From: Panorpa germanica | Taxonomy: Eukaryota > Arthropoda > Insecta > Mecoptera > Panorpidae | Length of the DNA stretch: 64,000 nt | Assembly: GCA_963678705.1 (NCBI GenBank) | Contig: OY783208.1 | Coordinates: 7,502,001-7,566,000 of the forward strand | Reading direction: 5' to 3' | Part shown: piece after piece, positions 23,932 to 64,000 of the stretch | Layout: the number at the start of each line of letters is the position of its first letter | Position numbering within the stretch: position 1 is the first letter of the stretch | Program-made: the position numbers and the translations under genes | The notes under the pieces: model-generated | What the model was told of the DNA's origin: nothing | Database searches by the model: none | The model's input: only the letters and a program-made list of their open reading frames with translations

Positions 23932-24567
23932 AATGGGCTTGTGTCCTATGTCTTAATTTCTGTAAAAGTGTACTGCATATTGATAAAGTGGGTTACTAGA
24001 ACCTCAAATGTACAATTATTTTTTAATAACTCCTTATATGTTAAGAGATATTAACAATTAAAAAAGTCATTTTGTCTCTTTAATTATTAAAGAGATTCAA
24101 CGATGTACACATTCCAAATGCATGTGACATCACAATCCTTGTGTAACGTTACCAACCTTACAGCTCATAAATCTCTGCTATATGTATGTATATAAAATAT
24201 CAAATATAATTCACAGCTATTAAAAGAAACAATAAAATTCCAAGTATATGTCTGCCTTAGCAGGGTTAAATAAAATAAAAACTTATTATTCTTTGATTTG
24301 ACTTGATTATTTGACTACCAACAGCTACAGAACATTACCACAGCACTGACCTACTCAACAAATAACAGACGTTAAAATGCATTTCACGTCATACAAATAT
24401 GGCCGACTATTTCTAGCGCTAAAACTACAATTCAAACTTTTAATTGCTATATCTTCGTCAATATTTAGATATTTAATAAAATAGACACGCCAATACACAT
24501 TTATTAACATCAATTTCAATCAACAATTGAAAAATTGACCACTAAAAAATGAGGACACAAGCCCATT
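23932..24567 (-). mobile_element. ~640 bp non-autonomous element, copy 7
   Basis: Block A duplicate of copy 2, full length, with a small internal deletion near tatatgtatgtatataaaatatc. Confidence 0.85.
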
Positions 24568-25430
24568 CTAAAACTTCTAAGGAAGGCGTGAAAGGCCTAA
24601 GGTCAAAACCATATAAAGAAGCAATTTATGACAATGTTTTTTTTTTCGACAAGGTTAATATATAATTATTTCTATAATTACTACATAATAAAATAATATT
24701 TAAAGAATACTTTGTGAATTTTTATAAATAAATATCAAGAAATGACCCATTGACAGCGAATCTGCGCTGACGTCACAAAAAAAAGTTTCATTGCGGTGTC
24801 ACTCATTACTCATCATTGGATTATTTGAAATCAAAAAACCAAAATGATTTCATTAGTTGGTAAGTTTCTGGAAATAACGCTGTCGAGTAGTTTTTATTTT
24901 ATTGATTTTTCAATTTTTTACAGCACTTAGAAGTCAAAATATCAATTTTTCATGAAAAAATCAGAAACTTTCTTATTTTAAAATACTTTAAAATTAAAAA
25001 GAAGAAAAACATTTATGTAAAGACATTTATGTAAAGAAAGAGTGTGCAAAATTTCAAAAGGATCTCTGCAGTAGATTTTGAGCTGGAGAGGACGCCGACT
25101 CTGAGAAAGATATGTCTGAGAAAACGCGTTTAAAAATTTCAAAGAAAGACGAAACCAGACCAGAGAGGTGAAGACTTAAAACTCTATATCTCCGAAAGTT
25201 TTACTACAATGGACTTCAAATCAACAATAAACTTAATGTGTTGTACATTAATATAAATAGATAAAAAAAGAGATGAAACCTTAACCCTCCCCCTCCCGAA
25301 CTCTTAAGGTGTGTAAAGTCAACTTAAGATTTTGCAGGAATAAGAGACCATCGAAGTATTGTTCAAGTAGAAAATATTAGTTTATTAAATGAAATAAACG
25401 ATGGATAATTCACAAGTAGATAATAAAATA
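24568..25430. other. Tail of block A copy 2, no gene seen
   Basis: Duplicate of 4593-5460. No gene recognised. The block ends at 25430, about 95 bp before the stop codon of the ZF gene at 25525-27093. Confidence 0.45.
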
Positions 25431-25524
25431 ACAACAGTAATACGAAGTAATACGAACGAAACCATCATTTTTAAATGAACCGCTCGCCGAAATGTTTTAT
25501 TTAATGTATTGCAAGAAAATTACC

Positions 25525-39794: not shown

Positions 39795-42683
39795 TCATCT
39801 GCATCGTTTTATAAATAATTTTTGCCTCTTCTGCTGGGCTGCCACTTTAATACAATCGCTCTTCATGGAAGATGAGAGCGATAATCTTCCAGAGAGCAAT
39901 TGATTAATATCTTTCACCCATTTATATATGTACAGATTCACTGACAAATTAAGTAATGTCTCTTTTAACTCTATGCTGTGATCTGTACATACGAAAAGAG
40001 TGAAATCTATATCATGCCGTACTGTTTGCATGATCTCATGTATCCTATTGTGTTTTTGTGGCAGTAATTCAAATACAGTACGTTCAATATTTTTTATTAA
40101 GTCAATAAATTGTTCACTTGGATACTCTAAACTTTTATTTTCGAGACCCTTAAATTCTCTTTTTTCGATCAGTTTATGTACTGAAGTTGGAGAGTCTGCC
40201 CTTAATGTGTTTTTGCAGATGTCGCAATCGCTCAACTTAAGAAGTGTGAAGCACCTTCTTAAAATGTACCCAGCAAAGTAACCTATTTCTAGGTTACACA
40301 TTTTATTAAGTTGAGTTGCTGTAGCACCAGCTACTTCATACACAGTTGCACGCACCTGCGAAACACTCTCCCCAACTTCTGCAATTTCACTGTCTTCCGC
40401 ATGACTTAATAAATCTCTAATATTTGATACAAGGCCAACACATTTGTCCTCTTCACAATTAGCATCAATAGAATGTCTTGAAGACATGTTATTGATGACT
40501 AATGCTTTGAAGGAATTTTCAAAGTCCGTTGGTGTTGGCCTTGTATGTAACCTGCCGTATGTTCGGATGGCACCGAAAAAATTTTCAAGTGGGTCCTGGT
40601 TCACCCTTCTGGTTAAAAAGTATTCGAATTTCTGATCATTTTTCAATTTAAACCAGAGGCATATAAAACTTTTTATACTAGTAATAAAATTCTTTATTGA
40701 TGGGATTTTCACCAAACCTTTATATTTTTCCGTATCTATATCATTAGCTTTCTCTATGTAATCTTTATCTATGTAATACATAGAATTCAAGACCTTTATT
40801 GCAGCTTTCCAAAATTTTATATGTCCTGAACCAGTTTGGACAGCTCCCTTATATTTTCTTCCACCACCAGTTTTTTGGTTACTGTTCAGGGAATCAAATA
40901 AACTGTCCAAAAACTGCAGCAGTTCTGCAGTACCCGATGCATATTTTCCAACGCGTACTGAACCTAAAATTCAGAAATATATCATTGTGGCATACTTATT
41001 AATTAAATATAAAAAGTAAAAATAGAAAAATGTAAGGGTCAATTGATAATTACCTTCGTCAACGTAGACGGACAAGATCGACGCAACACGTTGGCTGAAC
41101 ACCTGGGTGCAATACTTGACTTTCATTTTCTTTATTTTTCCCGCTCTCACGTGGTATTCGGTGAGTTTGGGTACCCCACGAATATTTTTTTGCACGTCAA
41201 TTTCGTATAGTTTTGTAATGCTATCCCAGGATGCTCTTTTTTCGGTGCCATTCGAATCCAACTTAAATACGATGTTTTTACTGATGAAGGAATTTCTTAT
41301 TCCTTTCATCAGATGTGGCACATCAAAGGTATGCAGTAATTGTCGACCGCTGACTATCACATATTTATCATTATATGTGATATCGTTTCTGAGCGCATTC
41401 ATTCTGTTCTCGTTCTTAATGTATTTAATTGCGGCAACATTGGTAGACCCTTGGTCGCAAACAAGTATTTCTGGTTCAAGGCCTGTCGATACAATGCTCT
41501 TTACAACTTCTTTTATTATTCTGACCAGATCATGTGTTTTGGTACTGGTCTCGCAAAAGTAGTAGGCAAATGGAATTTTCCAACTATTTCGTAGTCCAGT
41601 TACCATAAACACCAATGCATGGTCAGAAAATCGCGAAGAAGCAATACCATCTGACAAATCTTGAAAACCAGATATACGTCGTTTACTAGCATGGTACTTC
41701 AAACCTGAAAATAAAAATTAAGTTAATAAAATAAATAAGTTCTCGTTGAACATGATAAATAAGTTGCAGTTGTTACCTGGCATTAAAAACATTTCATCAA
41801 ACAGAATGGAACACGCTCTGTTTTGAAGTGACAATCCTTTTACTACATCCTTCAAATAATAATTTATATTAGTAATATTTGTAAAAATATACATATCGAA
41901 ATAAAGAATATTTAGACATACCTGTTTTAAACGGCAATTTTTTAAGCAAATTATTTAATGTTGATCTTGACGGCAGGACAAACATTTTGGCGAAATGTCT
42001 ATAGGCTTTCGGGGCCTGCTTATAAATAGACAGTGCCAGTACTTTATCTTCAAACTCAAAGCGTCGCCCTTGTCTACTTTTACCTGCTAATCTCAATTGC
42101 GATTTCAGGAACTAAGCGCCCTCAGGAGTTATCATCTCCAGATTCTTTTTAAAGTTGGCATTGGTTGATAAGCTCTTCGCCCTTCTCAATCTCTCCTTCA
42201 GTACGTTATTCTTCCTCGCCAGTAGTTTATGTTTTCTTATAACTAAACGTGCGACCGGCGTACTTTTAGGGGAGTTTCGTATTTCACTTGATGTGCTCAC
42301 ATTAGCAGCTAATGTTTCTACCTGATCTGCGCTAATTTCTTCATCTATTAAAAGTCCTTTGTTAATATTTTATACAGTTACAAATATATACAAAAATGTT
42401 GGAAATGCTTACCAATGGCTGGAAATAACGATGGAAAACTGTCATACTTTATATAGATTTTAGAAAAATCCCTAACCACCTCGTGCTCATGAAAATGTTT
42501 TTGACAAACTACAAGCCCTTTCCGGAATAATTCCTCACGACTTAAGTTATTGTACTTAGGATTGTTTATAAACTTCACCCATTTATCAAATATTTCATGA
42601 CGTGGCTGCTGCTTTGGATTAGGCAAATTAAACACAGACACCCCCTTCTTAGATGTGTGACATACAGCACAATACGATGGCAT
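39795..42683 (-). pseudogene. THAP9 / P-element-like transposase, five exons, one nonsense codon
   Basis: Exon 1 (42413-42683) encodes a THAP zinc domain: C-x2-C at the start, V-C-Q-K-H-F and F-P-S-L-F-P at the end. Exon 2 (41922-42356) has a basic leucine-rich coiled coil and a helix-turn-helix. Exon 3 (~41777-41880) holds the catalytic F-D-E-M. Exon 4 (41054-41704) has D-Q-G-S-T-N and the GTP-binding insert start. Exon 5 (39795-40963) has the D-P-L-E-N-F-F-G C-terminal region. Boundaries show gtaagc, gtaaca and gtaatt donors and good acceptors with matching phase, except before exon 3, where the acceptor is unclear. A TAG at 42112-42114 interrupts exon 2. P-superfamily transposases excise and insert DNA elements in the nucleus. 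It is either recently dead or a domesticated gene hit by mutation. Confidence 0.85.
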
Positions 42684-44367: not shown

Positions 44368-46358
44368 ATGGCACAGCAACTAAAGTCGGAATTAATTGAA
44401 ACACTGGAAATAGAAAACATGAAAGTAGAACCAGAAGAGGAATGCATTGTTCAGTTCGAACCACAAGTCAAAGAGGAGGTCGACGTCACTTCCGATAGAG
44501 AAGCAGATTGGCCAGGGGTTTATATTAAATTTGAACCTGACCTGAGTTCACCTGTTGTCCTGTGTAAATATTGCGAAGACGTGTTTCAAGATTCCTGTAA
44601 ATTGCAGGAGCACCTGGAGGCCCCATCGGACTGCCGTGGAACCAGAACGACAAAAAAACCGGTGGATGGTGATGATAATAGAAGATTCTCGGAACCACAA
44701 GGCAGTGGACAATCGGAAATAGAAGAATTAATTTCCAATCAGAAGAATTTCATCTGTGATGTTTGTAACATGGGGTTTGACAAGGCACCGGAAATAATAA
44801 AACATTTGCGTGTTCACACTAACAGGAAGTTATATTCCTGTCATGAATGTGACAAATCCTACACTAGTAGGTTCAATTTAGTTATTCACCAACGAAATCA
44901 TACCGGGGAGCGTCCGTTTTCATGTGACGTTTGTAACAAGACGTTTTCAACTTCAAGATAGTTAAAGGAACATAAAAACACGCATTTAGGCGTTAATCCT
45001 TTTTCCTGTGACATTTGTAAAAAAACGTTTTCAAGTTCACGCTATTTAAGGGAACATAAAAAGACTCATTTAGATGTTAAGACTTTTTCATGTGACATTT
45101 GTAAAAAAACATTTTCAAGGTCAAGTTATTTAAAGGAACATAAAAAGACGCATTTAGACGTTAATCCTTTTTCCTGTGACATTTGTAACAAAATGTTTTC
45201 ATGTTCAAGGTCTTTAAAGGAACATAAAAAGACGCATTTAGATGTTTCTCCTTTTTCATGTGACATTTGTGACAAAACGTTTTCAAGTTCAAGGTCTTTA
45301 AAGGAACATAAAAACACGCATTTAGGCGTTAATCCTTTTTCGTGTGACATTTGTAAAAAAACATTTTCAAGGTAAAGTTATTTAAAGGAACATAAAAAGA
45401 CGCATTTAGACGTTAATCCTTTTTCCTGTGACATTTGTAACAAAACATTTTCAAGGTCAAGTTATTTAAAGGAACATAAAAAGACGCATTTAGACGTTAA
45501 TCCTTTCTCCTGTGACATTTGTAACAAAACATTTTCAAGGTCAAGTTATTTAAAGGAACATAATAAGACGCATTTAGACGTTAATCCTTTTTCCTGTGAC
45601 ATTTGTAACAAAACATTTTCAAGGTCAAGCTATTTAAAGGAACATAAAAACACGCATTTAGACGTTAATCCTTTTTCATGTGACATTTGTAACAAAATGT
45701 TTTCAAGTTCAACCTATTTAAAGGAACATAAAACACGCATTTAGACGTTAATCCATTTACATGTGACAACTGTAACAAAACGTTTTCAAGTTCAAGGTCT
45801 ATAAAGGAACATAAAAAGACGCATTTAGACGTTAATCCTTTTTCATGTGACGTTTGTAACAAAACATTTTCAAGGTCAAGTTATTTAAAGGAACATAAAA
45901 AGACGCATTTAGACGTTAATCCTTTTTCCTGTGACATTTGTAACAAAACATTTTCAAGGTCAAGCTATTTAAAGGAACATAAAAACACACATTTAGACGT
46001 TAATCTTTTTTCATGTGATATTTGTAACAAAACATTTTCAAGGTAAAGGTATTTAAAGGAACATAAGAAGACGCATTTAGACGTTAATCCTTTTTCGTGT
46101 AACATTTGTAAAAAAACATTTTCAAGTTCAAGTTATTTAAAGGAACATAAAAAGACGCATTTAGACGTTACACCTTTTTCATGTGACACTTGTAACAAAA
46201 CATTTTTAAGTTCAAGGTCTTTAAAGGAACATAAAAAGACGCATTTAGACGTTAAACCACTTTCATGTGACATTTGTAACAAAACGTTTTCATGGTCAAG
46301 TGGTCTAAAGCGACATAAAAAGTCTCATTTAGCCGTTAATTCTTTTTCATGTGAATAA
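44368..46358 (+). pseudogene. 19-finger C2H2 gene broken by stops and a frameshift
   Basis: The first 197 codons are open: acidic N-terminus (MAQQLKSELIETLEIEN...) with V-K-E-E-V, a one-off C-x2-C segment (V-L-C-K-Y-C), then fingers 1-3, where a canonical T-G-E-R-P-F linker joins fingers 2 and 3. A TAG at 44959-44961 ends this frame inside finger 3. The same frame continues as near-identical fingers with L-D-V-N-P-F-S-C linkers, cut by a TAA at 45373, a one-base deletion near 45730 and a TAA at 46044, and ends at 46358. It could make a three-finger truncated protein; the rest is decaying. Confidence 0.85.
45003..46330 (+). repeat. 84 bp zinc-finger tandem array, ~16 units
   Basis: Units starting tgtgacatttgtaa are spaced exactly 84 bases from 45091 to 45679, 83 at the one-base deletion, then 84 again to 46266. 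Many units are almost identical (ttttcaaggtcaagttattt, aaaggaacataaaaagacgc). The homogeneity points to unequal crossing-over or gene conversion. Confidence 0.92.
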
Positions 46359-46959
46359 TGGGATAAAACATTTTCAAGTTTTTATGCTTATCAATCTAAT
46401 TTTATGTTCTAATTCTAAGTTTTATGCTAAATGATTGTATGTTATAATGTTCAACTGTATATGTTTATTTTCTTACATGTTTTTTAGTGATTTTTGTATG
46501 ATGGCTCGAATACGGTTCCATGAATCCTTTTTAAAATTTCCTGTTTCGTTGAGCGAAAAATTCTAAGACTTTTGACGTCCTCGGATTGTTTCCTTAATTT
46601 CCTGGAAACCTTAAAAAAAACTACGATAAGAAATGGTTACTTTTTGCTATATAACTGTTAATCCGTAAAAGGTAGAAAGTTGTAATTTTGCCTGTGTATT
46701 ACGCTATTTAATGCAAACATATTGCAAAATATAAAAACTCAAGAATTAATAAAGGGTCGTCCAGAAAATTGAGAGCACTATGGAGGAAACTCACATTTTG
46801 GACTGTGTACTAATTGAATATCATATTCAAAATTTAAAACAATATATTTTGGGGCACGGGGGCGGTTTTTGCTCAAAATAAATAAAAATGGTGATAGAAA
46901 GTTAAAATTTTGTATATGGGCTAACTTTGGCACCTAATTTACAAACCGAAAAAGAAAAT

Positions 46960-49680: not shown

Positions 49681-49915
49681 AATGGGCTTGTGTCCTATGT
49701 CTAAATTTCTATAAAAGTGTACTATATATTGATAAAGTGAGTTACTAGAACCTCTAATGTTCAATTATTTGTTAATAACTCCTTATATGTTAAGAGATAC
49801 TAACAATGGGCTAGTAACCTTATTTTTTAGTGGTCGATTTTTCAATTGTTGATTGAAATTGATGTGAATAAATATGTATTGGTGTGTCTATTTTATTAAA
49901 TATCTAAATGTTGAC
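49681..49915. mobile_element. ~640 bp element pieces, copy 10, interrupted by Polinton
   Basis: 49681-49806 is the aatgggcttgtgtcctatg end in copy-2 orientation. 49807-49915 is a copy-1-orientation left end (tattttttagtggtcgattt) running up to ...aaatgttgac, where family members continue with ggagatatag. The Polinton terminus follows at 49916, so this copy was its target. Confidence 0.75.
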
Positions 49916-51652
49916 AGTAGGGTAGGAGAGCCGGTTCTGGCTTAAATTTGAAATTGAGTTGGAAATTATTGGAGTGGGGATGCATTTAGGTCACGATATG
50001 CAGAGGGGGCGTGGCTAGACTTGGAAGAATGTAAAAGGGGGTAAGGGTGGGGTAAGGAGTGAGGGGTAAGTGGATAAGCTGTGTTGTGATTGGTTTAGAA
50101 GATGATGACATCATTACAGACTTTATCTCTAGGTACAGTCTCTTTAATATCCGATATGAGTGAGAAAGCAATAGTGGTAAAGAGTGAGATACCGATATTA
50201 ATTCTTATGTTTGATTTGTTATTGTTTATAAGATTATGATGTTGTAGGTGCAAAAATGTTAGTTATATGTTATAATGACGTTATATTACACATGGTGGGG
50301 TATAATATGAAAGGTTATAGTATAATTTGTTATATATATTCTTAAGGATTGTTAAACATAGATTATAACAATAACTATTACAATTATAGCGCATTCCTTC
50401 GAATTCACTAGAAATTTGCAAACAGCACATGTGTTAAAACTGTGTGAGAAACTTTGGACACAAGCGCATTAGTTCGAATGTAACTTGAATGTAATGGGAA
50501 CGTAACTTGAAGCACATGTGTTAAAACTGTGTGAGAACGTGTTGAATACAAGCGACGAATTCACCAGAAAAAAAAAAAACAATATTTTCCAAACGTAGAC
50601 AAATTTTTTTTGTTATACATTTCATGTTTTAGTTAAATGTAGGGCCGGATTGGGTATTGTTGTATTAGATTATTTATTTAAGTATACTAAAAGTTATAAT
50701 ATACGTACATTATATCATTGATGATTCTCAAAGCATACAGTTATTTTTTTTTTTTTTTTATGTGTTGTAATAATCATAAAGTCTTATAAGTCAGACAATG
50801 GTGTTGTTTTACATATATGAGGTTATAACACCACAGTAACTGTTAAAATAGTACAAGGATATTTTATTATACAAATTTATTAGGTAGCGGTTTGATCCAT
50901 ATGTATGAGGCTATATAGGTTGTGGATAATAGTAGAATCACAATTAGCTAAACCAAAAGCTCTAACTTAAGTTGAAACAAACTTTTTAAAATAAAACTGC
51001 TCGAAGGGTCGGGAGCCCCGAGAATTTTATTTATTTTGAATGCGCGGGGATGATAGAATTAAGAATTGATAGTCTGATGGTAAATATATTATAGTATTAA
51101 ATAATTAAAGTGCTACCCTGTTAAATTTTTATATTATAATTTATATATAAGTCTAAGAATATGATTGTGTTACATTAAGTATTGTGCAGTTTGTTTATTA
51201 AATTGTCTTGCAAAGTCTTGTTCTGAGTTAGTTCTTTTTAAATAACTTGTGTTTTTAAATAATTTAGTGGCTATTTAGTGCTATTTAAAAAAAAAAAAAA
51301 AAATTATCAATAATTTCAGTTTGGAAGTGGATAATTATGTGGTAAGTAAATTTTGTATAAGATTTTGTATGTTTACAATAAATTTAATAGTAGTTTTCAA
51401 ATATTTACAGGTGTCTATAGCAGTTTCAACCTAATCTTGAGTTTTTACCGTTTGAACCCTTTTAGACTTTCATACTTATGAGCAAACAGTTAGGTAAGTT
51501 AATTTTTAATACTTTTTAGATAATTTTAATTTAGTTATAATAATAATAATAACAGTTTTAAATGTCAACAGAATATTGCTGTTTTGTCCCATCTCCCATT
51601 GCCAATAATTACTACCCTATAGATTGATATAACTTTGTAAGTTAATTTTTTA
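49916..51652. other. Non-coding terminal region of left arm
   Basis: No gene. Near the end are G-rich runs (gggggtaagggtggggtaag, ~50037). A direct repeat gcacatgtgttaaaactgtg occurs at ~50426 and ~50512 with flanking cgaattcac motifs. Homopolymer runs lie near 50565, 50745 and 51285. As the terminal ~1.7 kb of a protein-primed element it may contain replication and transcription signals, but none is identified. Confidence 0.5.
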
Positions 51653-51718
51653 TTGAATGTATTAAAACAACTTAATTTAGTAGTAACTGTTTATATTAAT
51701 AATAATATAAGTTTTAAA

Positions 51719-52386
51719 ATGTCTTTAGATAACAACAACTTTTTGTGTTGTGTATACCTGTATTCAGATGACACTTATAAGTACACCTGTCCGAAAATAG
51801 CAGAATCTGGATTACAGGTTAGTTTTTTTATTATATGTTTACCAATTAAAAAATTTAGTTATTTATATAATTTTATTTATAGTTATGCCTTTATCATAGA
51901 AAGCAGCGGGCAATTGAATGTAGTGAATATCATCTTGTTAGTAATTTTTATAGATTTAAAATATTAGGTGTATCAATCAGTAAAGTAGCAAAATTAGAGT
52001 TAAATTTAAGAAAAAAATATGAGCTAAAATATAATATAATATCAGACGCACAACATGAGCATTTTAAAAATATATTAAGAGCATTAGTAACAGGATATTT
52101 TGATGATACATATAGTGCAAATACATTACATAAATTACGCTATTTGCAATACCATTTTATTAATAAAGTTATAGATTTGAATTTGGTTAAAAACGTATGT
52201 TGGCTTGATAAGTTTAACCATACTTTTTATTCAAAATTAGAAAAATTAAGAACAATTGAAAAGTATGACTTAGAAGTAAAAGTCAAACTTAATAAATTTG
52301 ATTATTTTAAAAATAAAAATGAAATAAGTTTTTCTGTTTCATTGAATTCATTAAAGGAAGAAGAAGAAGAAGAAAATTGGGATTGA
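51719..52386 (+). CDS. Unknown two-exon Polinton protein, 200 aa (left arm)
   Basis: Exon 1 (51719-51817, 33 codons) starts M-S-L-D-N-N-N-F-L-C-C and ends I-A-E-S-G-L-Q. A 65-base intron with gttagt donor and tttatttatag acceptor follows. Exon 2 (51883-52386) continues in phase 0 as L-C-L-Y-H-R-K-Q-R and ends in an acidic E-E-E-E-E-E-N-W-D tail. The Met at 51719 was chosen because its exon-1 length matches the paralogous gene at 52905, which has the same layout. Cysteines and histidines around the splice (C-P, C-L-Y-H) could form a small metal site. No family recognised. Both arms keep this frame. Confidence 0.65.
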
Positions 52387-52520
52387 TTTTTAAATTAGCG
52401 TTATATTTTATGTGCATCTGATATTACATATAATTTTTAGCTATCAGTTGTTTTAGAATCAATATTTCGTTTTAGTTTTAATAAATATATTATAATGTAT
52501 ATGAAATTTATATCAACCAA

Positions 52521-52860
52521 AATATAAAATATTACAACAAATTATGAAGAATATTAATGGTATGGGATACTATACATACACTGACAATGAAGATGCTAGC
52601 AATTTTTATTTTTTTTGCAAAAATTTTTTTTTAAGCTATATTTATAGTGGGGACTATTATATATATATATATATAAATTACGTTTAAAAAATATAAAATA
52701 TTACAACAAATTATAAAGAATATTAATGGTATGGGATACTATACATACACTGACAATGAAGATGCTAGCAATTTTTATTTTTTTTTTGCAAAAAATTTTT
52801 TTTAAGCTATATTTATAGTGGGGACTATTATATATATATATATAAATTACGTTTAAAAAA
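52521..52860. repeat. Two tandem ~165 bp units (left arm)
   Basis: Two adjacent copies of aaatattacaacaaattat...atgggatactatacatacac...gtggggactattatatatat...acgtttaaaaaata. The mirror pair at 61139-61470 shows that the duplication predates the palindrome. Confidence 0.88.
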
Positions 52861-52904
52861 TACTTATTTTATACAGTAATTGTACGTGTAAACATTGTAA
52901 AACA

Positions 52905-53672
52905 ATGAGTGACTTTGAGAACTATTGTGTTGCAGTAGTTAATTTTGATCAAAATATTTTATATACATGTGTAAACATTGTAACAGTTTCGGGAAAATCG
53001 GTGAGTTTTTCTTCTGTGTATGTGATATCCGCATTAATGTATATAACTATTGCAAATTTTCTTTTTCTTTTTTTATAGTTTTGCCATAAACATTGGATTC
53101 AATACTTAAGGGAAAGCGAGGAATATCACTTAATAGATAATTATAAAGATTTTTTAAGTATAGGATATACAATTAGCCAATTGGCTTCAACTGAATTAAT
53201 CCTTAGAGAAAATTTTGAATTTAAGTATCAGTTTTATATAAAGAGTGATGTAGGTCATACATGTTGGAAAAATATTTTAAAAGTTTTAAGTACTGGTAAA
53301 TATAATAGTTCTTATGATCATTGTACCACTCAAAAATTAAAAAAATTACCTTTCAATGAAATTATTGATTTTAATATAAATTCTATTTTATATTTGGAAA
53401 TTTTACAAAATTTTAAATTACATTCACCGGTCAATCAGGATTATATTTTAAAAGTAGTTAAACGTTTAAATTTAAATATATTTTAAAATGAATTAAAATC
53501 AGAAAGAATTAGAAAAAAAGATAACAAAACTAGTTCATATTTTAAAAAATTACAGGAACGAAAAAATAGATTTAATAGAGTTACTAATATTTATAATTTA
53601 GAAGTAGGAGGGGGAGGTAAAAGAGTAATTTCAAAAGCATATAAAAGTCATGACAATTTTAATTTTATTTAG
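52905..53672 (+). pseudogene. Unknown two-exon Polinton protein, paralogue 2 (left arm, stop)
   Basis: Exon 1 (52905-53000, 32 codons; start M-S-D-F-E-N-Y-C) ends at a gtgagt donor. Exon 2 begins at 53079 after ttttttatag as F-C-H-K-H-W-I-Q-Y-L. The layout, exon-1 length, intron phase and the S-E-Y/E-E-Y-H-L motif are shared with the gene at 51719, so the two are paralogues. A TAA at 53484-53486 interrupts the left copy where the right arm has lysine; the frame then continues to 53672, giving an original length near 229 residues. The C-terminus is basic and ends with a G-G-G-G-K-R segment. Confidence 0.65.
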
Positions 53673-53696
53673 TTACAATTTAAAATTGTAGCGTAA

Positions 53697-54452
53697 TTGA
53701 TCATATATATTTTTTATGCAATGGAGTCATTAAATAAAGTTGATTTCATAAATCCAATATATTTGCTTAAGTGCTCATATTTTTTAAATACAAGTAAAAC
53801 TAAGCAAATTACAGTTGCCCTAGATGCAAATAATTTTTGTGAGAGTGTTTGTGTGATTGAAAAGTTTAACGGGCAGTATGTATATTTATCACAAAATGAC
53901 TGGGAAATTATTTTAAATAACAAAGCCAGTATTTCCAATTATTTTAATGGAATAATAACATATCTGGAGCAACCATGTATTGTATTGTCAAAATGTACAA
54001 TTCATTTTCAAACTTTGTATGAAAAACCGACTATGGTTATCGAGCAAAATTATCACCTTAAATCAATTTTGGCAGATAATGGTCCAAGATCATCTGTATA
54101 CATGCAAATAGAGTCTTGGCAGAAACTTATGCAGTTAGCAGAGTGCATTACGTTTTCTTTAAATCAACTTACGGCATGGTCAAAGTCTGCATTGAATATT
54201 TTTAATGAAGTGGAGAATAAGTTGTTTTCTTTACTAATAGAAAGTAATGAAATAAATTATAAAAACCATAACAAATACTTTTATGAAAATTTCGTTTTAA
54301 ATAACATTAATAACATAGAATTAAATTACTATAAATTGTTTACTAATATATCATCAAATATGAATGTAAAGTTACTAAGCTTAGAAATTAAGGCGCTTTG
54401 TATAGACTTACTTAAGACTCAAATACAAGAAAAAGCTAATAAATATGTATAA
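53697..54452 (+). CDS. Uncharacterised Polinton protein, 251 aa (left arm)
   Basis: An intact frame present in both arms (mirror at 59538-60293) with one visible residue difference (Y versus N near residue 62). The internal Met at 53721 (M-E-S-L-N-K-V-D-F) is a plausible alternative start. No transmembrane segment or catalytic motif is obvious. The middle has Q-P-C-I-V-L-S-K-C and a helical second half. It follows the two-exon genes in the same direction and is tail-to-tail with the 138-residue gene. Function unknown; a minor structural or DNA-binding role would be speculation. Confidence 0.7.
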   Translation: MIIYIFYAMESLNKVDFINPIYLLKCSYFLNTSKTKQITVALDANNFCESVCVIEKFNGQYVYLSQNDWEIILNNKASISNYFNGIITYLEQPCIVLSKCTIHFQTLYEKPTMVIEQNYHLKSILADNGPRSSVYMQIESWQKLMQLAECITFSLNQLTAWSKSALNIFNEVENKLFSLLIESNEINYKNHNKYFYENFVLNNINNIELNYYKLFTNISSNMNVKLLSLEIKALCIDLLKTQIQEKANKYV

Positions 54453-54550
54453 TTGTAAATATGTATAGAGTGTATATAAAAAAAATTTTATAAATGAAAG
54501 AACATGTATTTTATTTATTAAGGTATATTTATTTATTTATTTATTAGGGT

Positions 54551-54964
54551 ATAACTATTTCCATTAGAATCATAATATAAATTAAAATTACAATCACAAC
54601 AGTTTCTTATTTGACATGGTGGTCCATCTCTTTAAATTCTACCCTTATTATAATGTTTAAAACATAAGCGGCGTTTTTGAATTTCAACATTTTCTTTTAA
54701 GTATGATGGTAATCGATTCCAATTTTGTTCTATATCGGTAGAAAACATTATATAGTACAAGAAAAATTCTGTTGGCAAGTAATGTAAATCTTCTTCAGTA
54801 AGATCTTCTAACAAACATTCATTGTCTTTATATTTTCTTAATACAGCTCCAACTTTTAAAAGTGTTTGAGCAACTTCTTCATATTTATTTAAAAAATTTG
54901 AATTCATTCTTGCGTTTGCAGGTGATTCTTTGATGGTTTTACATATACTAGTTCTTATAAACAT
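54551..54964 (-). pseudogene. Small Polinton protein, left-arm copy with premature stop
   Basis: The counterpart of the 138-residue gene at 59023-59439. Here a TAA at 54632-54634 replaces a glutamine codon, so only 110 residues are open. The C-terminal cysteine cluster (C-Q-I-R-N-C-C-D-C) is therefore not translated. It lies 3 bases after the capsid-like gene on the same strand. Confidence 0.75.
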
Positions 54965-54967
54965 TAT

Positions 54968-55819
54968 TTATGTAATTTTATTAACAATTCCAGATAATGG
55001 TTTATACTCAACAATCCGGTCATGTAATATTAAACAATAAGCATGAACGTAGCCTGCAATATTTTCAGATGTTTCTAATTCAAGCCTTATATCAACTGGA
55101 GCAGGTTTTAGAAATTCTTTCTGTTTTGAACAATCTATTACTATTAAAGGTGCATTTTCTTTAAAATTCTTTAAATTTAAAATGGGATTCGGCTCTTTAT
55201 CATAGTATGATTTTTGGAAATTAGCATACATTTCATATGCTATTGCATACTTATTATTGTCATAATCAAGATTAAGATTATCATAGGGGTACACATCAGA
55301 ATTTAAGTATAGTTTTACGTTTCTTAAGGTACAAGTGTGAAATTTACTCATATCCTTTGTAATATCGTCTTTACCTTCTCTTTGTAACCCTAATATAACA
55401 TAACGTGGCTTTTCAAGTGCTGTAGATGTTTTAATAGACCAAGATTGATTTGTCGTGCGTGGCAACGCTGGATATTCGTACAAGTCCCAACTTCGAAAGC
55501 CAATATACAATGATTAATCGAGTTCTATTGTTTGTAATAATTCTAATTTCTTTTTGTCTGATACATTTATATGAGGCATTCGCCATTGAATCTTTTCAAT
55601 TGTTATTGATGGTATTATATCGTCCTTTTTACTTATCCAAATTGCGTTATTATCGTTTTTTGATCGAATTAATATTAATTCATGCTTTACTGGTAATATA
55701 ATTTTTTTAAAGTCTTCACAGAACCCAAATATTGTTTTAAGAGGAATACAAACACTAAAATTTCCCTTATTATCTAATAAATTGTTACTTGTATCACGCC
55801 ACCCCAAGTTTTCAATCAT
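54968..55819 (-). pseudogene. Double-jelly-roll capsid-like protein, left-arm copy with stop
   Basis: The same protein as 58168-59019, split here by a TAA at 55511-55513 where the right arm has lysine. Upstream part 101 residues (to I-E-L-D), downstream part 180 residues (from Y-I-G-F-R-S-W-D). Recognisable blocks are the E-L-I-L-I-R-S-K segment, F-R-S-W-x-L-Y-E-Y-P, K-P-R-Y-V-I-L-G, Y-L-N-S-D-V-Y-P-Y-D and A-Y-C-L-I-L-H-D-R-I-V-E-Y. These match the double-jelly-roll-like domain of Polinton/adintovirus-type major capsid proteins. The N-terminal part is missing at the junction near 55815. Confidence 0.78.
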
Positions 55820-57362
55820 ATTCCATAACTTAAGTAATTACGATAGCCATATAATTGTAAAAGAATTAGGTAATGATAGTGAAAAAATTGAAGTTATTCC
55901 AGAAAATAAGGAAAAGTATATATCTTTTACGAAACATATTTTGGTGGAATCAAAAGTCGATAAAAATGATAAAGTTCATAACTGCTATATTAAACTTAGA
56001 TTTATTGATTCTTTACGATTTATGCATTCTAGTTTAGAAACACTTGCAAAAAATTTATTATCAGAACAATTTTTCGAATTAAAAAAATTCTATCCGAATG
56101 AAAATCATTTCAATTTATTAAAACGTAAAGGTGTATTTCCTTATGAATATGTAAATAGTAGGGATATGCTTAATGAATCTGACTTGCCATCTCAAAATAA
56201 TTTTTATAGCTCACTTAATTGCTGTAATATATCTGACGATGATTACAATCATGATAAAATGGTTTGGTATGCATTTGAAATGAAAACATTGGGGGAATAT
56301 TCAGACTTATATTTAAAGATCGATGTTCTGTTGTTAACAGATATTTTTGAAAATTTTCGAGATGTGTGCTATAAAACATATAATTTAGATCCCTGTCAAT
56401 ATTATACAGCACCAGGACTTTCTTGGGATGCTATGTTAAAGTATACAAGTATTGAATTAGAACTTTTAACAGATATTGATATGTTACATTTTATTAAAAA
56501 AAGGTATAAGAGGTGGAATATCACAATGCTCTCACAGACATGGAATTGCAAATAATAAATATATGTCCAATTATAATTCAAATAAAGATTCTCAATATTT
56601 AATGTATTGGGATGCAAATAACTTATATGGTTGGGCGATGAGTCAATATTTACCACATGAGGGATTTAAATGGTTAGATACATATAAATTACAAACATTT
56701 AATGTAGAAGCTATTGAAGATAACTTAGATTTTGATTATATATTAGAAGTCGATTTAAGATATCCTAATTATTTGCACGATGAACACAATGATCTACCTT
56801 TCTGTGCCGAAAATATTAAACCACCTTGCATTAAAACAAATGACGTTAAATTAATACCAAATCTAAATAACAAGTATAATTATGTGCTTCACTATAGATC
56901 GTTAAAGCAATGTCTTAAAAATAATCTGAAAATAGATAAAATTCATAGTAAAAATTTATTTCTTTGTATAGAATTTCACTTTATCACCCAATCTTAATGT
57001 ATTTTAAAGTAACAGAAATGTATTAATTTTAGGCTTAATGAAAGATGAATGCGCGAGTAGTATAATTTGGGAGTTTGTTAGGTTAAATATCAAAAATGTA
57101 TGCAATTGATATTGAGGGTTCATGCACAGCTAAAGCAAAAGGAATTAAGAAAAATATTGTAAACAAATTCAATATTAAAGATTATGTAAATTGTTTATCT
57201 CAGGATAACATATTATTGATCACAATAAATACCTTTAAATCTATTAGGCATACAATTTATACTCAAATGATAAGTAAAGTAGGTCTTAGTGGAAATGATA
57301 ATAAAAGATATGTATTAACTGATGGTATAAGTACTTTAGCACATGGACATTATAAAATTTAG
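55815..57362 (+). pseudogene. polB: Protein-primed DNA polymerase B, internally deleted
   Basis: Family-B polymerase of the organellar/viral protein-primed type. Visible: Exo II (F-H-N-L-S-N-Y-D-S-H) near 55821; the linking region (K-G-V-F-P-Y-E-Y); Exo III-like Y-L-K-I-D-V near 56306; and motif A (D-A-N-N-L-Y-G-W-A-M) near 56611. A one-base frameshift falls in an A run near 56500. After the R-S-L-K-Q-C-L segment the frame stops at 56997. The polymerase C-terminal region (G-L-M-K-D-E, then K-A-K-G-I-K-K and D-G-I-S-T-L-A-H-G-H-Y) resumes from ~57032 to 57362. Exo I, motif B and motif C (the D-T-D site) are absent, so it is catalytically dead. Confidence 0.85.
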
Positions 57363-57523
57363 TACTAATTTTAAGTTAAGTTTAAGTTTTGTATAAATTT
57401 ATATCTGTTTTAGTTAAGATAATTAAAATGTATATTTATATAACAATTGAAAAATAGCATATTTGTAAATAAATAATAATATATAAACACAAACCATTGA
57501 GTTTTATAATTATAAGATTTAAT
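56464..57523. other. Unique centre of the palindrome (1060 bp)
   Basis: The only part of the element present once. It holds the palm motif A region, the internal deletion and the C-terminal end of the polymerase, then ~160 bases of AT-rich non-coding DNA before the right arm begins in mid-polymerase at the position equivalent to 56463. Confidence 0.9.
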
Positions 57524-58180
57524 GTTCTAATTCAATACTTGTATACTTTAACATAGCATCCCAAGAAAGTCCTGGTGCTGTATAATATTGACAGGGATCT
57601 AAATTATATGTTTTATAGCACACATCTCAAAAATTTTCAAAAATATCTGTTAACAACAGAACATCGATCTTTAAATATAAGTCTGAATATTCCCCCAATG
57701 TTTTCATTTCAAATGCATACCAAACCATTTTATCATGATTGTAATCATCGTCAGATATATTACAGCAATTAAGTGAGCTATAAAAATTATTTTGAGATGG
57801 CAAGTCAGATTCATTAAGCATATCCCTACTATTTACATATTCATAAGGAAATACACCTTTACGTTTTAATAAATTGAAATGATTTTCATTCGGATAGAAT
57901 TTTTTTAATTCGAAAAATTGTTCTGATAATAAATTTTTTGCAAGTGTTTCTAAACTAGAATGCATAAATCGTAAAGAATCAATAAATCTAAGTTTAATAT
58001 AGCAGTTATGAACTTTATCATTTTTATCGACTTTTGATTCCACCAAAATATGTTTCGTAAAAGATATATACTTTTCCTTATTTTCTGGAATAACTTCAAT
58101 TTTTTCACTATCATTACCTAATTCTTTTACAATTATATGGCTATCGTAATTACTTAAGTTATGGAATATGATTGAAAACT
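57524..58180 (-). pseudogene. polB: Polymerase B fragment, right arm
   Basis: Inverted copy of the Exo II to Exo III part of the polymerase. It runs from F-H-N-L-S-N-Y-D near 58166 to L-L-L-T-D-I-F-E-N-F, where a TGA near 57625 ends it, then continues as homologous sequence to 57524 and stops at the arm boundary. It has no palm domain and cannot be functional. Confidence 0.85.
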
Positions 58181-59019
58181 TGGGGTGGCGTGATACAAGT
58201 AACAATTTATTAGATAATAAGGGAAATTTTAGTGTTTGTATTCCTCTTAAAACAATATTTGGGTTCTGTGAAGACTTTAAAAAAATTATATTACCAGTAA
58301 AGCATGAATTAATATTAATTCGATCAAAAAACGATAATAACGCAATTTGGATAAGTAAAAAGGACGATATAATACCATCAATAACAATTGAAAAGATTCA
58401 ATGGCGAATGCCTCATATAAATGTATCAGACAAAAAGAAATTAGAATTATTACAAACAATAGAACTCGATAAATCATTGTATATTGGCTTTCGAAGTTGG
58501 GACTTGTACGAATATCCAGCGTTGCCACGCACGACAAATCAATCTTGGTCTATTAAAACATCTACAGCACTTGAAAAGCCACGTTATGTTATATTAGGGT
58601 TACAAAGAGAAGGTAAAGACGATATTACAAAGGATATGAGTAAATTTCACACTTGTACCTTAAGAAACGTAAAACTATACTTAAATTCTGATGTGTACCC
58701 CTATGATAATCTTAATCTTGATTATGACAATAATAAGTATGCAATAGCATATGAAATGTATGCTAATTTCCAAAAATCATACTATGATAAAGAACCGAAT
58801 CCCATTTTAAATTTAAAGAATTTTAAAGAAAATGCACCTTTAATAGTAATAGATTGTTCAAAACAGAAAGAATTTCTAAAACCTGCTCCAGTTGATATAA
58901 GGCTTGAATTAGAAACATCTGAGAATATTGCAGGCTACGTTCATGCTTATTGTTTAATATTACATGACCGGATTGTTGAGTATAAACCATTATCTGGAAT
59001 TGTTAATAAAATTACATAA
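58168..59019 (+). CDS. Double-jelly-roll capsid-like protein, C-terminal part, 283 aa
   Basis: The intact right-arm frame. Blocks in order: I-P-L-K-T-I-F-G-F near 28, E-L-I-L-I-R-S-K near 48, F-R-S-W-D-L-Y-E-Y-P near 108, K-P-R-Y-V-I-L-G near 137, L-N-S-D-V-Y-P-Y near 168, D-C-S-K-Q near 223 and Y-C-L-I-L-H-D-R near 260. They fit the double-jelly-roll-like domain seen in Polinton/adintovirus major capsid proteins, which form the shell. The start (MIENLGW) sits exactly at the junction with the oppositely oriented polymerase fragment, so the N-terminal part of the usual protein is missing. Assembly competence is doubtful. Confidence 0.78.
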   Translation: MIENLGWRDTSNNLLDNKGNFSVCIPLKTIFGFCEDFKKIILPVKHELILIRSKNDNNAIWISKKDDIIPSITIEKIQWRMPHINVSDKKKLELLQTIELDKSLYIGFRSWDLYEYPALPRTTNQSWSIKTSTALEKPRYVILGLQREGKDDITKDMSKFHTCTLRNVKLYLNSDVYPYDNLNLDYDNNKYAIAYEMYANFQKSYYDKEPNPILNLKNFKENAPLIVIDCSKQKEFLKPAPVDIRLELETSENIAGYVHAYCLILHDRIVEYKPLSGIVNKIT

Positions 59020-59022
59020 ATA

Positions 59023-59439
59023 ATGTTTATAAGAACTAGTATATGTAAAACCATCAAAGAATCACCTGCAAACGCAAGAATGAATTCAAATTTTTTAAAA
59101 AAATATGAAGATGTTGCTCAAACACTTTTAAAAGTTGGAGCTGTATTAAGAAAATATAAAGACAATGAATGTTTGTTAGAAGATCTTACTGAAGAAGATT
59201 TACATTACTTGCCAACAGAATTTTTCTTGTACTATATAATGTTTTCTACCGATATAGAACAAAATTGGAATCGATTACCATCATACTTAAAAGAAAATGT
59301 TGAAATTCAAAAACGCCGCTTATGTTTTAAACATTATAATAAGGGTAGAATTCAAAGAGATGGACCACCATGTCAAATAAGAAACTGTTGTGATTGTAAT
59401 TTTAATTTATATTATGATTCTAATGGAAATAGTTATTAG
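59023..59439 (+). CDS. Small Polinton protein, 138 aa (right arm)
   Basis: Follows the capsid-like gene by 3 bases on the same strand, suggesting co-expression. Basic N-terminus, an acidic middle (L-L-E-D-L-T-E-E-D-L-H-Y), an aromatic stretch, and a C-terminal cysteine cluster C-Q-I-R-N-C-C-D-C-N that could bind metal. No family was recognised. The left-arm copy is cut before the cysteine cluster. Confidence 0.7.
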   Translation: MFIRTSICKTIKESPANARMNSNFLKKYEDVAQTLLKVGAVLRKYKDNECLLEDLTEEDLHYLPTEFFLYYIMFSTDIEQNWNRLPSYLKENVEIQKRRLCFKHYNKGRIQRDGPPCQIRNCCDCNFNLYYDSNGNSY

Positions 59440-59537
59440 ACCCTAATAAATAAATAAATAAATATACCTTAATAAATAAAATACATGTTCTTTCATTTAT
59501 AAAATTTTATTTATATACACTCTATACATATTTACAA

Positions 59538-60293
59538 TTATACATATTTATTAGCTTTTTCTTGTATTTGAGTCTTAAGTAAGTCTATACAAAGCGCCTT
59601 AATTTCTAAGCTTAGTAACTTTACATTCATATTTGATGATATATTAGTAAACAATTTATAGTAATTTAATTCTATGTTATTAATGTTATTTAAAACGAAA
59701 TTTTCATAAAAGTATTTGTTATGGTTTTTATAATTTATTTCATTACTTTCTATTAGTAAAGAAAACAACTTATTCTCCACTTCATTAAAAATATTCAATG
59801 CAGACTTTGACCATGCCGTAAGTTGATTTAAAGAAAACGTAATGCACTCTGCTAACTGCATAAGTTTCTGCCAAGACTCTATTTGCATGTATACAGATGA
59901 TCTTGGACCATTATCTGCCAAAATTGATTTAAGGTGATAATTTTGCTCGATAACCATAGTCGGTTTTTCATACAAAGTTTGAAAATGAATTGTACATTTT
60001 GACAATACAATACATGGTTGCTCCAGATATGTTATTATTCCATTAAAATAATTGGAAATACTGGCTTTGTTATTTAAAATAATTTCCCAGTCATTTTGTG
60101 ATAAATTTACATACTGCCCGTTAAACTTTTCAATCACACAAACACTCTCACAAAAATTATTTGCATCTAGGGCAACTGTAATTTGCTTAGTTTTACTTGT
60201 ATTTAAAAAATATGAGCACTTAAGCAAATATATTGGATTTATGAAATCAACTTTATTTAATGACTCCATTGCATAAAAAATATATATGATCAA
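59538..60293 (-). CDS. Uncharacterised Polinton protein, 251 aa (right arm)
   Basis: Mirror of 53697-54452, intact, nearly identical. Preservation in both arms, while neighbouring genes have acquired stops, is compatible with chance or with recent selection. Function unknown. Confidence 0.7.
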   Translation of the reverse strand: MIIYIFYAMESLNKVDFINPIYLLKCSYFLNTSKTKQITVALDANNFCESVCVIEKFNGQYVNLSQNDWEIILNNKASISNYFNGIITYLEQPCIVLSKCTIHFQTLYEKPTMVIEQNYHLKSILADNGPRSSVYMQIESWQKLMQLAECITFSLNQLTAWSKSALNIFNEVENKLFSLLIESNEINYKNHNKYFYENFVLNNINNIELNYYKLFTNISSNMNVKLLSLEIKALCIDLLKTQIQEKANKYV

Positions 60294-60317
60294 TTACGCT
60301 ACAATTTTAAATTGTAA

Positions 60318-61085
60318 CTAAATAAAATTAAAATTGTCATGACTTTTATATGCTTTCGAAATTACTCTTTTACCTCCCCCTCCTACTTCTAAATTATAAA
60401 TATTAGTAACTCTATTAAATCTATTTTTTCGTTCCTGTAATTTTTTAAACTATGAACTAGTTTTGTTATCTTTTTTTCTAATTCTTTCTGATTTTAATTC
60501 ATTTTTAAATATATTTAAATTTAAACGTTTAACTACTTTTAAAATATAATCCTGATTGACCGGTGAATGTAATTTAAAATTTTGTAAAATTTCCAAATAT
60601 AAAATAGAATTTATATTAAAATCAATAATTTCATTGAAAGGTAATTTTTTTAATTTTTGAGTGGTACAATGATCATAAGAACTATTATATTTACCAGTAC
60701 TTAAAACTTTTAAAATATTTTTCCAACATGTATGACCTACATCACTCTTTATATAAAACTGATACTTAAATTCAAAATTTTCTCTAAGGATTAATTCAGT
60801 TGAAGCCAATTGGCTAATTGTATATCCTATACTTAAAAAATCTTTATAATTATCTATTAAGTGATATTCCTCGCTTTCCCTTAAGTATTGAATCCAATGT
60901 TTATGGCAAAACTATAAAAAAAGAAAAAGAAAATTTGCAATAGTTATATACATTAATGCGAATATCACATACACAGAAGAAAAACTCACCGATTTTCCCG
61001 AAACTGTTACAATGTTTACACATGTATATAAAATATTTTGATCAAAATTAACTACTGCAACACAATAGTTCTCAAAGTCACTCAT
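60318..61085 (-). pseudogene. Unknown two-exon Polinton protein, paralogue 2 (right arm, different stop)
   Basis: Mirror of 52905-53672, with exon 1 ending in the same gtgagt donor. The lysine codon lost in the left arm is intact here, but a TAG at 60450-60452, absent from the left arm, ends the frame after T-S-S. The open part of exon 2 covers most of the protein, and the basic glycine-rich tail is lost. Confidence 0.65.
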
Positions 61086-61138
61086 TGTTTTACAATGTTT
61101 ACACGTACAATTACTGTATAAAATAAGTATTTTTTAAA

Positions 61139-61470
61139 CGTAATTTATATATATATATATAATAGTCCCCACTATAAATATAGCTTAAAAAAAATTTTTT
61201 GCAAAAAAAAAATAAAAATTGCTAGCATCTTCATTGTCAGTGTATGTATAGTATCCCATACCATTAATATTCTTTATAATTTGTTGTAATATTTTATATT
61301 TTTTAAACGTAATTTATATATATATATATATATAATAGTCCCCACTATAAATATAGCTTAAAAAAAAATTTTTGCAAAAAAAATAAAAATTGCTAGCATC
61401 TTCATTGTCAGTGTATGTATAGTATCCCATACCATTAATATTCTTCATAATTTGTTGTAATATTTTATAT
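61139..61470. repeat. Two tandem ~165 bp units (right arm)
   Basis: Mirror of 52521-52860 with slightly different dinucleotide and homopolymer lengths. Confidence 0.88.
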
Positions 61471-61605
61471 TTTGGTTGATATAAATTTCATATACATTAT
61501 AATATATTTATTAAAACTAAAACGAAATATTGATTCTAAAACAACTGATAGCTAAAAATTATATGTAATATCAGATGCACATAAAATATAACGCTAATTT
61601 AAAAA

Positions 61606-62273
61606 TCAATCCCAATTTTCTTCTTCTTCTTCTTCCTTTAATGAATTCAATGAAACAGAAAAACTTATTTCATTTTTATTTTTAAAATAATCAAATTTAT
61701 TAAGTTTGACTTTTACTTCTAAGTCATACTTTTCAATTGTTCTTAATTTTTCTAATTTTGAATAAAAAGTATGGTTAAACTTATCAAGCCAACATACGTT
61801 TTTAACCAAATTCAAATCTATAACTTTATTAATAAAATGGTATTGCAAATAGCGTAATTTATGTAATGTATTTGCACTATATGTATCATCAAAATATCCT
61901 GTTACTAATGCTCTTAATATATTTTTAAAATGCTCATGTTGTGCGTCTGATATTATATTATATTTTAGCTCATATTTTTTTCTTAAATTTAACTCTAATT
62001 TTGCTACTTTACTGATTGATACACCTAATATTTTAAATCTATAAAAATTACTAACAAGATGATATTCACTACATTCAATTGCCCGCTGCTTTCTATGATA
62101 AAGGCATAACTATAAATAAAATTATATAAATAACTAAATTTTTTAATTGGTAAACATATAATAAAAAAACTAACCTGTAATCCAGATTCTGCTATTTTCG
62201 GACAGGTGTACTTATAAGTGTCATCTGAATACAGGTATACACAACACAAAAAGTTGTTGTTATCTAAAGACAT
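61606..62273 (-). CDS. Unknown two-exon Polinton protein, 200 aa (right arm)
   Basis: Mirror of 51719-52386 with the same exon structure (ATG at 62273, gttagt donor, tttatttatag acceptor) and an uninterrupted frame ending in the acidic E-E-E-E-E-E-N-W-D tail. No family recognised. Confidence 0.65.
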
Positions 62274-62339
62274 TTTAAAACTTATATTATTATTAATATA
62301 AACAGTTACTACTAAATTAAGTTGTTTTAATACATTCAA

Positions 62340-64000
62340 TAAAAAATTAACTTACAAAGTTATATCAATCTATAGGGTAGTAATTATTGGCAATGGGAGA
62401 TGGGACAAAACAGCAATATTCTGTTGACATTTAAAACTGTTATTATTATTATTATAACTAAATTAAAATTATCTAAAAAGTATTAAAAATTAACTTACCT
62501 AACTGTTTGCTCATAAGTATGAAAGTCTAAAAGGGTTCAAACGGTAAAAACTCAAGATTAGGTTGAAACTGCTATAGACACCTGTAAATATTTGAAAACT
62601 ACTATTAAATTTATTGTAAACATACAAAATCTTATACAAAATTTACTTACCACATAATTATCCACTTCCAAACTGAAATTATTGATAATTTTTTTTTTTT
62701 TTTAAATAGCACTAAATAGCCACTAAATTATTTAAAAACACAAGTTATTTAAAAAGAACTAACTCAGAACAAGACTTTGCAAGACAATTTAATAAACAAA
62801 CTGCACAATACTTAATGTAACACAATCATATTCTTAGACTTATATATAAATTATAATATAAAAATTTAACAGGGTAGCACTTTACTTATTTAATACTATA
62901 ATATATTTACCATCAGACTATCAATTCTTAATTCTATCATCCCCGCGCATTCAAAATAAATAAAATTCTCGGGGCTCCCGACCCTTCGAGCAGTTTTATT
63001 TTAAAAAGTTTGTTTCAACTTAAGTTAGAGCTTTTGGTTTAGCTAATTGTGATTCTACTATTATCCACAACCTATATAGCCTCATACATATGGATCAAAC
63101 CGCTACCTAATAAATTTGTATAATAAAATATCCTCCTATTATTTTAACAGTTACTGTGGTGTTATAACCTCATATATGTAAAACAACACCATTGTCTGAC
63201 TTATAAGACTTTATGATTATTACAACACATAAAAAAAAAAAAAAAATAAATAAATAACTGTATGCTTTGAGAATCATCAATGATATAATGTACGTATATT
63301 ATAACTTTTAATATACTTAAATAAATAATCTAATACAACAATACCCAATCCGGCCCTACATTTAACTAAAACATGAAATGTATAACAAAAAAAATTTGTC
63401 TACGTTTGGAAAATATTGTTTTTTTTTTTCTGGTAAATTCGTCGCTTGTATTCAACACGTTCTCACACAGTTTTAACACATGTGCTTCAAGTTACGTTCC
63501 CATTACATTCAAGTTACATTCGAACTAATGCGCTTGTGTCCAAAGTTTCTCACACAGTTTTAACACATGTGCTGTTTGCAAATTTCTGGTGAATTCGAAG
63601 GAATGCGCTATAATTGTAATAGTTATTGTTATAATCTATGTTTAACAATCCTTAAGAATATATATAACAAATTATACTATAACCTTTCATATTATACCCC
63701 ACCATGTGTAATATAACGTCATTATAACATATAACTAACACTTTTGCACCTACAACATCATAATCTTATAACCAATAACAAATCAAACATAAGAATTAAT
63801 ATCGGTATCTCACTCTTTACCACTATTGCTTTCTCACTCATATCGGATATTAAAGAGACTGTACCTAGAGATAAAGTCTGTAATGATGTCATCATCTTCT
63901 AAACCAATCACAACACAGCTTATCCACTTACCCCTCACTCTTTACCCCATCCTTACCCCCTTTTACATTCTTCCAAGTCTAGCCACGTCCCCTCTGCATA
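62340..64000. other. Non-coding terminal region of right arm
   Basis: Mirror of the left terminal region, with the same direct repeats and C-rich (G-rich on the minus strand) end. No gene. The sequence is cut by the window end. Confidence 0.55.

Follow-up and report, generated by a model that had tools for sequence, protein, structure and literature searches.

The stretch of Panorpa germanica DNA analysed here, 64,000 nucleotides of contig OY783208.1 from position 7,502,001 to 7,566,000 (hereafter the window, C5:7502001-7566000 in our contig numbering), holds at its right edge a Polinton-type element that was integrated as a palindrome and is partly deleted. The first-pass annotation had described it as a single fossil of replication or recombination, but it is one copy among a multi-copy palindromic family, the members of which were inserted whole, between 6-bp duplications at unlinked sites. 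We consider it likely that they represent a Polinton lineage whose transposing and inherited form is an inverted dimer, in which the series end, genes and PolB is present twice around a short loop beyond the PolB stop codon. Both ends of such a dimer are the same end. That a lineage should multiply in the form of 13-16-kb palindromes is surprising, because long palindromes are expected to be unstable. The genome searched was the 464-Mb assembly with 249 contigs, and the probe searches scored the best candidates only, so that all counts given below are lower bounds and partners may have been missed.

Palindromes inserted whole between target duplications

A self-BLAST of the window aligned positions 49997-56469 with 57518-64000 in inverted orientation at 99.34% identity over 6,486 columns, the alignment being cut by the window end, which bears out the earlier description of two inverted arms of about 6.5 kb. 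In a residue-by-residue comparison, the arms are separated by 27 substitutions (15 of them transitions) and a few gaps. That a palindrome of this kind should arise by chance is out of the question. The flanking sequence shows that the right arm continues past the window to C5:7566081, which is equivalent to window position 64081, its last 81 bases lying outside. The left arm (49916-56469, plus strand) measures 6,554 bp and the right arm, an inverted copy (from 57518, minus strand), 6,564 bp; the apparent centre of 1,048 bp lies between them at 56470-57517, and the whole element measures 14,166 bp.

Polintons, also called Mavericks, are recognized by 5'-AG...CT-3' ends in combination with a 6-bp target duplication. 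The window element begins with AGTAGGG, of which the first A is position 49916, exactly where the first-pass annotation had placed the start, and finishes with CCCTACT. Outside both ends stands a perfect 6-bp duplication, GTTGAC, at 49910-49915 on the left and at C5:7566082-7566087, beyond the window, on the right. Both flanks contain pieces of a dispersed repeat, yet the palindrome stops at the element ends. We exclude an artefact of joined reads because identical GTTGAC copies lie outside both ends and the same architecture occurs with other duplications at unlinked loci; the element is a real insertion that entered the chromosome as a palindrome, and no assembly fold-back. Its Polinton-type identity is concluded from the PolB remnant, the double-jelly-roll capsid gene, the AG...CT ends and the 6-bp target duplication.

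Both ends were sought in 15 palindromes, namely the window element and 14 pairs of matches to a window-centre probe, and were read in nine. All nine are flanked by perfect 6-bp duplications, which are mutually different: GTTGAC in the window, TGCAAC in the copy C10, TTTGTA in C6b, CACGTC in C13a, CATATT in C8, CATATA in C7a, GACCTG in C6a, GATATT in C5b and GAAGAG in C11. The palindromes are 12.9-15.6 kb long; Polintons are mostly 15-40 kb according to PMC7805220. The arm lengths agree within 152 bp in all seven palindromes with a defined axis, and the largest differences (151 and 152 bp, in C13a and C10) correspond to roughly a single unit of a 153-bp array in the type-A arms. In C6b, 17.5 copies of this unit lie near the end of the type-A arm (L052 4152-6825, C6:19735151-19737824), and the array could be a candidate binding-site array for replication or integration proteins. 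C6b is also situated at the margin of another tandem array, with 17.4 copies of a 138-bp unit (L052 1497-3891), and long open frames are present in its flank.

A multi-copy family and its inherited fold

The 2-kb probe from the window centre gave 131 matches, with 40 of 1,672 candidates scored, and these are often plus and minus pairs 3-4 kb apart, at least 14 of which exist besides the window. Likewise, a 344-aa probe from the PolB C-terminus gave 124 matches that merged into 117 gene places (117 of 1,755 candidates scored), among which neighbours within 8 kb form 38 convergent, three same-strand and no divergent pairs, with 76 of the 117 places in convergent pairs. Of the 24 PolB frames of at least 1,280 aa at these places, 23 are in convergent pairs, and in at least ten palindromes both arms hold one; the remaining long frame (C181:83768, minus strand) has a plus-strand PolB piece about 3 kb upstream. 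Neighbouring matches to an ATPase probe within 15 kb form 14 convergent pairs (28 of 150 scored places), two same-strand pairs and no divergent ones. Furthermore, two other elements with window-type ends, C5:7330277-7345454 and C1:5327977-5343342, hold convergent PolB pairs that are centred within about 200 bp of the element midpoints. A higher-order rearrangement is seen at C11:1807266-1820445, where three tandem PolB pieces about 4.8 kb apart are followed by an inverted one.

Some of the convergent pairs consist of PolB variants that are 73-78% identical to the probe and have equal or nearly equal numbers of stop codons in both arms. Because identical tallies, for example 3 TGA, 1 TAG and 11 TAA, recur in unlinked copies of these variants, several of them in both arms, palindromes with a dead PolB seem to have multiplied as well, presumably helped in trans.

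The centres were compared in 13 of the 14 pairs (C6c was left out), and 11 of these are symmetric and two, C8 and C13b, asymmetric. In the symmetric relatives, the fold is a short loop about 0.6 kb downstream of the PolB stop codon. A spacer of 18-70 nt separates the arms in C10 and related copies, the exact search being limited to about 70 nt, and exact inverted arms extend up to 2,078 bp (C13c). A 22-nt loop, GAATTCTAAAATAAATACTCTA, located between arrays of an 11-bp unit, is present with 0-1 mismatches in eight of the 11 symmetric centres, at unlinked sites. A 1,200-bp centre is identical in C10 and C6b, including the unequal repeat numbers, and the same centre is found inverted in C5a. Because of the loop common to eight of the 11 symmetric centres and the centre shared by C10, C6b and C5a, we conclude that the palindrome is inherited as a unit by common descent.

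The window copy departs from this arrangement. An asymmetric stretch, given as 1.06 kb in the first-pass annotation, does exist, but it is not the original fold. To the left of the junction, the sequence tracks the arm of a symmetric relative past the PolB stop, to the right it tracks the other arm of the relative from within PolB, and a 3-bp microhomology, GTT, overlaps at the junction. A centre-spanning deletion removed the original fold together with part of the right arm, and left 56470-57517 (plus strand) as a remnant of the left arm that contains the middle and C-terminal pieces of PolB and downstream sequence. Copy-back at the junction of the window itself was considered and rejected, since the sequence of relatives continues across it from either side. 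The right arm begins inside the polymerase gene, as noted earlier, with a PolB remnant at its start; the mid-polymerase junction is a deletion scar and not the point of a strand switch, while fold-back as such is the natural origin of the palindrome. The search for relatives that the annotation had proposed as a check did reveal one-way, that is, non-palindromic, relatives with related ends, judged by position, and the comparison of centres showed symmetric palindromic kin that fold elsewhere.

The two arms of a copy evolve in concert, with C5b as an exception. In a 1,380-bp stretch close to the centre, compared in 11 copies, the arms within a copy differ at 0-7 sites, and the left arms of different copies at 0-82 sites; C7b has 7 differences between its own arms versus 18-82 to other copies. 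C10, C6b, C7a and C5a show no difference at all over these 1,380 bp, which suggests a recent burst. The main blocks are 99.3-99.98% identical between whole arms in five copies, and by its arm identity of 99.3% the window insertion would predate those of C6b or C7a, leaving conversion out of account.

By position, one-way Polintons coexist with the palindromes in the same genome. A search with the window end sequence gave 40 matches (40 of 912 candidates scored), among them at least 13 facing end pairs 13-21 kb apart, the window's own included. A stretch at C5:6494400-6495200 contained no end of the window type. At C1:1910732-1927750, the facing ends are 91-92% window-like and 17.0 kb apart, and enclose, judged by position, a single ATPase and a single capsid gene, the offset of which is 4,915 compared with 5,055 in the arm of the window element. 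Ten of 137 capsid places scored from 496 candidates are in five divergent pairs, like that of the window, and one more pair is convergent, whereas 125 have no second capsid place within 15 kb. Many of these places hold a 406-aa open frame, 69 of the 137 have an ATPase within 8 kb, and 64 of 72 such links are opposite-strand at 3-4 kb. A cluster of adjacent or nested elements is located at C13:16094000-16130000, where L061 has a capsid gene, an ATPase and PolB pieces in one-way order.

Genes of the window copy and its neighbourhood

The window copy is a defective member of the family. A PolB remnant in the left arm and centre (55816-56948, plus strand; DNA_pol_B_2, 48.8 bits) is without the N-terminal half, its homology to the complete PolB of relatives starting at 55816-55818, and a C-terminal remnant recognized by comparison with the relatives follows at 57029-57362 (plus strand). 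Between the two pieces, 80 bp stands where the relatives have about 553 bp, including a YTDTDS stretch that we take to be polymerase motif C. The mirror image of 55816-56469 is present in the right arm at 57518-58171 (minus strand). PolB of the window copy is taken as dead because the N-terminal half and the motif-C region are lost.

Each arm also has an N-terminally truncated gene for a double-jelly-roll capsid protein, which is interrupted by one TAA in the left arm (54968-55819, minus strand) and open over 283 aa in the right arm (58168-59019, plus strand), where it matches PF21738 at positions 50-316 with 336 bits. Adjoining the capsid gene is a gene for a small protein, at 54632-54964 (minus strand) and 59023-59439 (plus strand), the latter with 138 aa and no Pfam match. 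A 251-aa frame at 53697-54452 (plus strand) and 59538-60293 (minus strand) is likewise without a Pfam match. Two fragments of a packaging-ATPase gene were read in the left arm: one at 52507-52593 (plus strand), with 87 of 87 bases identical to a frame of a relative that matches Pfam Pox_A32, and one at 52688-52762 (plus strand; 75 bases, 98.7%) from an overlapping part of the same gene. The ATPase of the relative L061 matches Pox_A32 with 24.5 bits, against a cut-off of 22.8.

Shorter pieces of PolB matched DNA_pol_B_2 with 48.6-49.9 bits, whereas longer stretches of the protein had no polymerase match in Pfam, probably through a filter effect. Residues 552-599 of the PolB frame have endonuclease VII-like matches in PHROGs, where the capsid protein has a single weak match (E 0.021), to a family without known function. 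A collection of viral contigs yielded no confirmed relatives of the capsid protein or of a 630-aa piece of PolB, and no solved structure matched the latter at E up to 1. In C6b, PolB has 1,279 aa from the ATG in both arms, by coordinates, and in the stretch listed for the type-A arm it is the sole frame within the element that reaches 90 aa, no capsid gene being among the listed frames.

The remainder of the window contains a cluster of C2H2 zinc-finger genes, inside which a direct duplication (1-5461 and 19966-25431, 99.25% identity) represents either a real tandem duplication or unresolved haplotypes. Next to a zinc-finger gene, at 44913-46380, is an array (86-90% identity) whose period, about 84 bp, is that of zinc-finger repeats. 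A dispersed repeat of about 640 bp occurs in both orientations at 1152-1792, 3953-4595, 12916-13551, 17707-18341, 21127-21769 and 23931-24570; it forms a MITE-like family in the cluster, and part of it also lies beside the right end of the palindrome. Two coding regions with a G+C content above that of the surroundings (5415-9559 and 29945-33813) are presumably LTR-retrotransposon-like, and we assume that two frames at 39795-41702 are a candidate for a broken P-element-type transposase.

Origin and maintenance of the palindromes

The lineage would have been founded when a one-way Polinton folded back past PolB into an inverted dimer, presumably by copy-back during protein-primed replication. 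PolB could then copy the dimer from its two identical ends by protein priming, the displaced strands may fold into hairpins, which would keep the arms similar, and other Polintons might supply in trans the integrase that inserts the palindrome. The window copy was inserted as a palindrome of this kind, and has lost the PolB N-terminal half, the motif-C region and, before or after insertion, the true centre. We are somewhat inclined to go further and to propose an obligate palindromic genome, which would be copied as a self-complementary hairpin with arms that are kept identical, would have shed capsid and integrase in an apparently youngest, PolB-only branch, and would carry PolB-dead copies as passengers.

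The elements share with the adintovirus-like Polintons a type B polymerase, AG...CT ends, 6-bp target duplications, the double-jelly-roll capsid gene (in the window and in many single-copy relatives) and, in relatives, an A32-like ATPase. They differ from them in that the inverted repeats span the whole element, so that the genes are present twice and both ends are the same, and in that the C6b type-A arm codes for PolB alone. A hairpin derivative of a yeast linear plasmid, reportedly described by Kikuchi and colleagues in the EMBO Journal in 1985, is said to be a protein-primed type B replicon with a palindromic dimer and a hairpin monomer, and is the closest working parallel known to us. Hairpin-type plasmids with protein priming are said to have a free linear form that is closed by a loop at one end and bears a terminal protein at the other, whereas the elements studied here are chromosomal, integrated with target duplications and multi-copy. 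In copy-back defective genomes and symmetric adenovirus recombinants, one genome end is duplicated in inverted order, as here, but these are sporadic by-products that need a helper; the Panorpa form is passed on and amplified, many copies have long open PolB frames, and eight of 11 symmetric centres share a junction loop. Finally, Foldback and Galileo elements also have very long inverted repeats, internal tandem arrays and variable lengths. Galileo is a member of the P-element superfamily, which is marked by a P-type transposase and 7-bp duplications, and its repeats are reported to reach about 1.26 kb; the elements found here have PolB, 6-bp duplications and 6.5-7.8-kb arms instead.

Alternatively, each palindrome could have arisen separately from a one-way Polinton by copy-back (strand switching) and been integrated once, as the one-way relatives with window-type ends (by position) and the presence of at least three centre types (C10-type, C7b, C11/C1) might indicate. 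We regard this as improbable in view of the same loop in eight unlinked palindromes and of the C10 and C6b centre, which is common to both down to its asymmetric repeat number and inverted in C5a; nor would accidents of a one-way parent be expected to place 23 of 24 long PolB frames in palindromes. A more gradual route would be the growth of terminal repeats in the style of foldback elements, by recombination or gene conversion between the ends until the whole element was covered, with transposition of the palindromes thereafter. The internal tandem arrays of the type-A arms resemble those of foldback elements, and PMC3573991 mentions repeat growth in Galileo and refers briefly to reports that the inverted repeats of Polintons had grown too. 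This route is nevertheless unlikely in our judgement, given C10-type arms that meet at a spacer of 18-70 nt and are exact over up to 2,078 bp, and no graded series of partly extended repeats was noticed, although no search was aimed at one.

The idea that chimeric fold-back reads created the palindromes during assembly can draw on C5a, which ends at a contig end, but we give it hardly any credence: different perfect duplications were found in nine of nine cases, the palindrome stops at the element ends, substitutions separate the window arms, and the 38 convergent PolB pairs have no divergent counterpart.

Several observations weigh against an inverted dimer as the inherited form. The other centres in three symmetric copies (C7b, C11 and C1), together with the asymmetric C8 and C13b, mean that several founding folds or later changes are needed. 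The element at C1:9728529-9743105, with ends 99-100% window-like, has one PolB piece, in reverse orientation in its left half, which is hard to reconcile with a simple palindrome. The right arm of C5b is nearer to C13a than to its own left arm, and the likeness of arms could also stem from gene conversion after insertion. Six of the 15 palindromes were not read at both ends: the far end lies outside the fetched stretch in five (C13c, C7b, C6c, C1 and C13b), and C5a runs off its contig. The step of integration in trans is argued from the ends and duplications because no integrase, which in Polintons is of the RVE type, was recognized among the frames of C8, C11, C6b and the window arm that were scanned with Pfam, and not every frame was scanned. 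A free linear, hairpin or terminal-protein form is not visible in an assembly, and a review that cites the yeast plasmid describes hairpin elements with a loop at either end, which leaves the terminal protein at one end unconfirmed.

We know of no earlier Polintons that could be named in which the whole element is palindromic and is passed on as such, both arms having long open polymerase frames, and a search of the open-licence literature by title or abstract start found no palindromic Polintons. The two arms of each copy could serve to clock its insertion age, much like the two LTRs of a retrotransposon, if conversion is excluded. If the proposed inverted dimer is correct, the family would constitute a natural experiment on the handling of fold-back products in linear genomes with protein priming, and would suggest a route by which a virus is transformed into a capsid-less selfish replicon.

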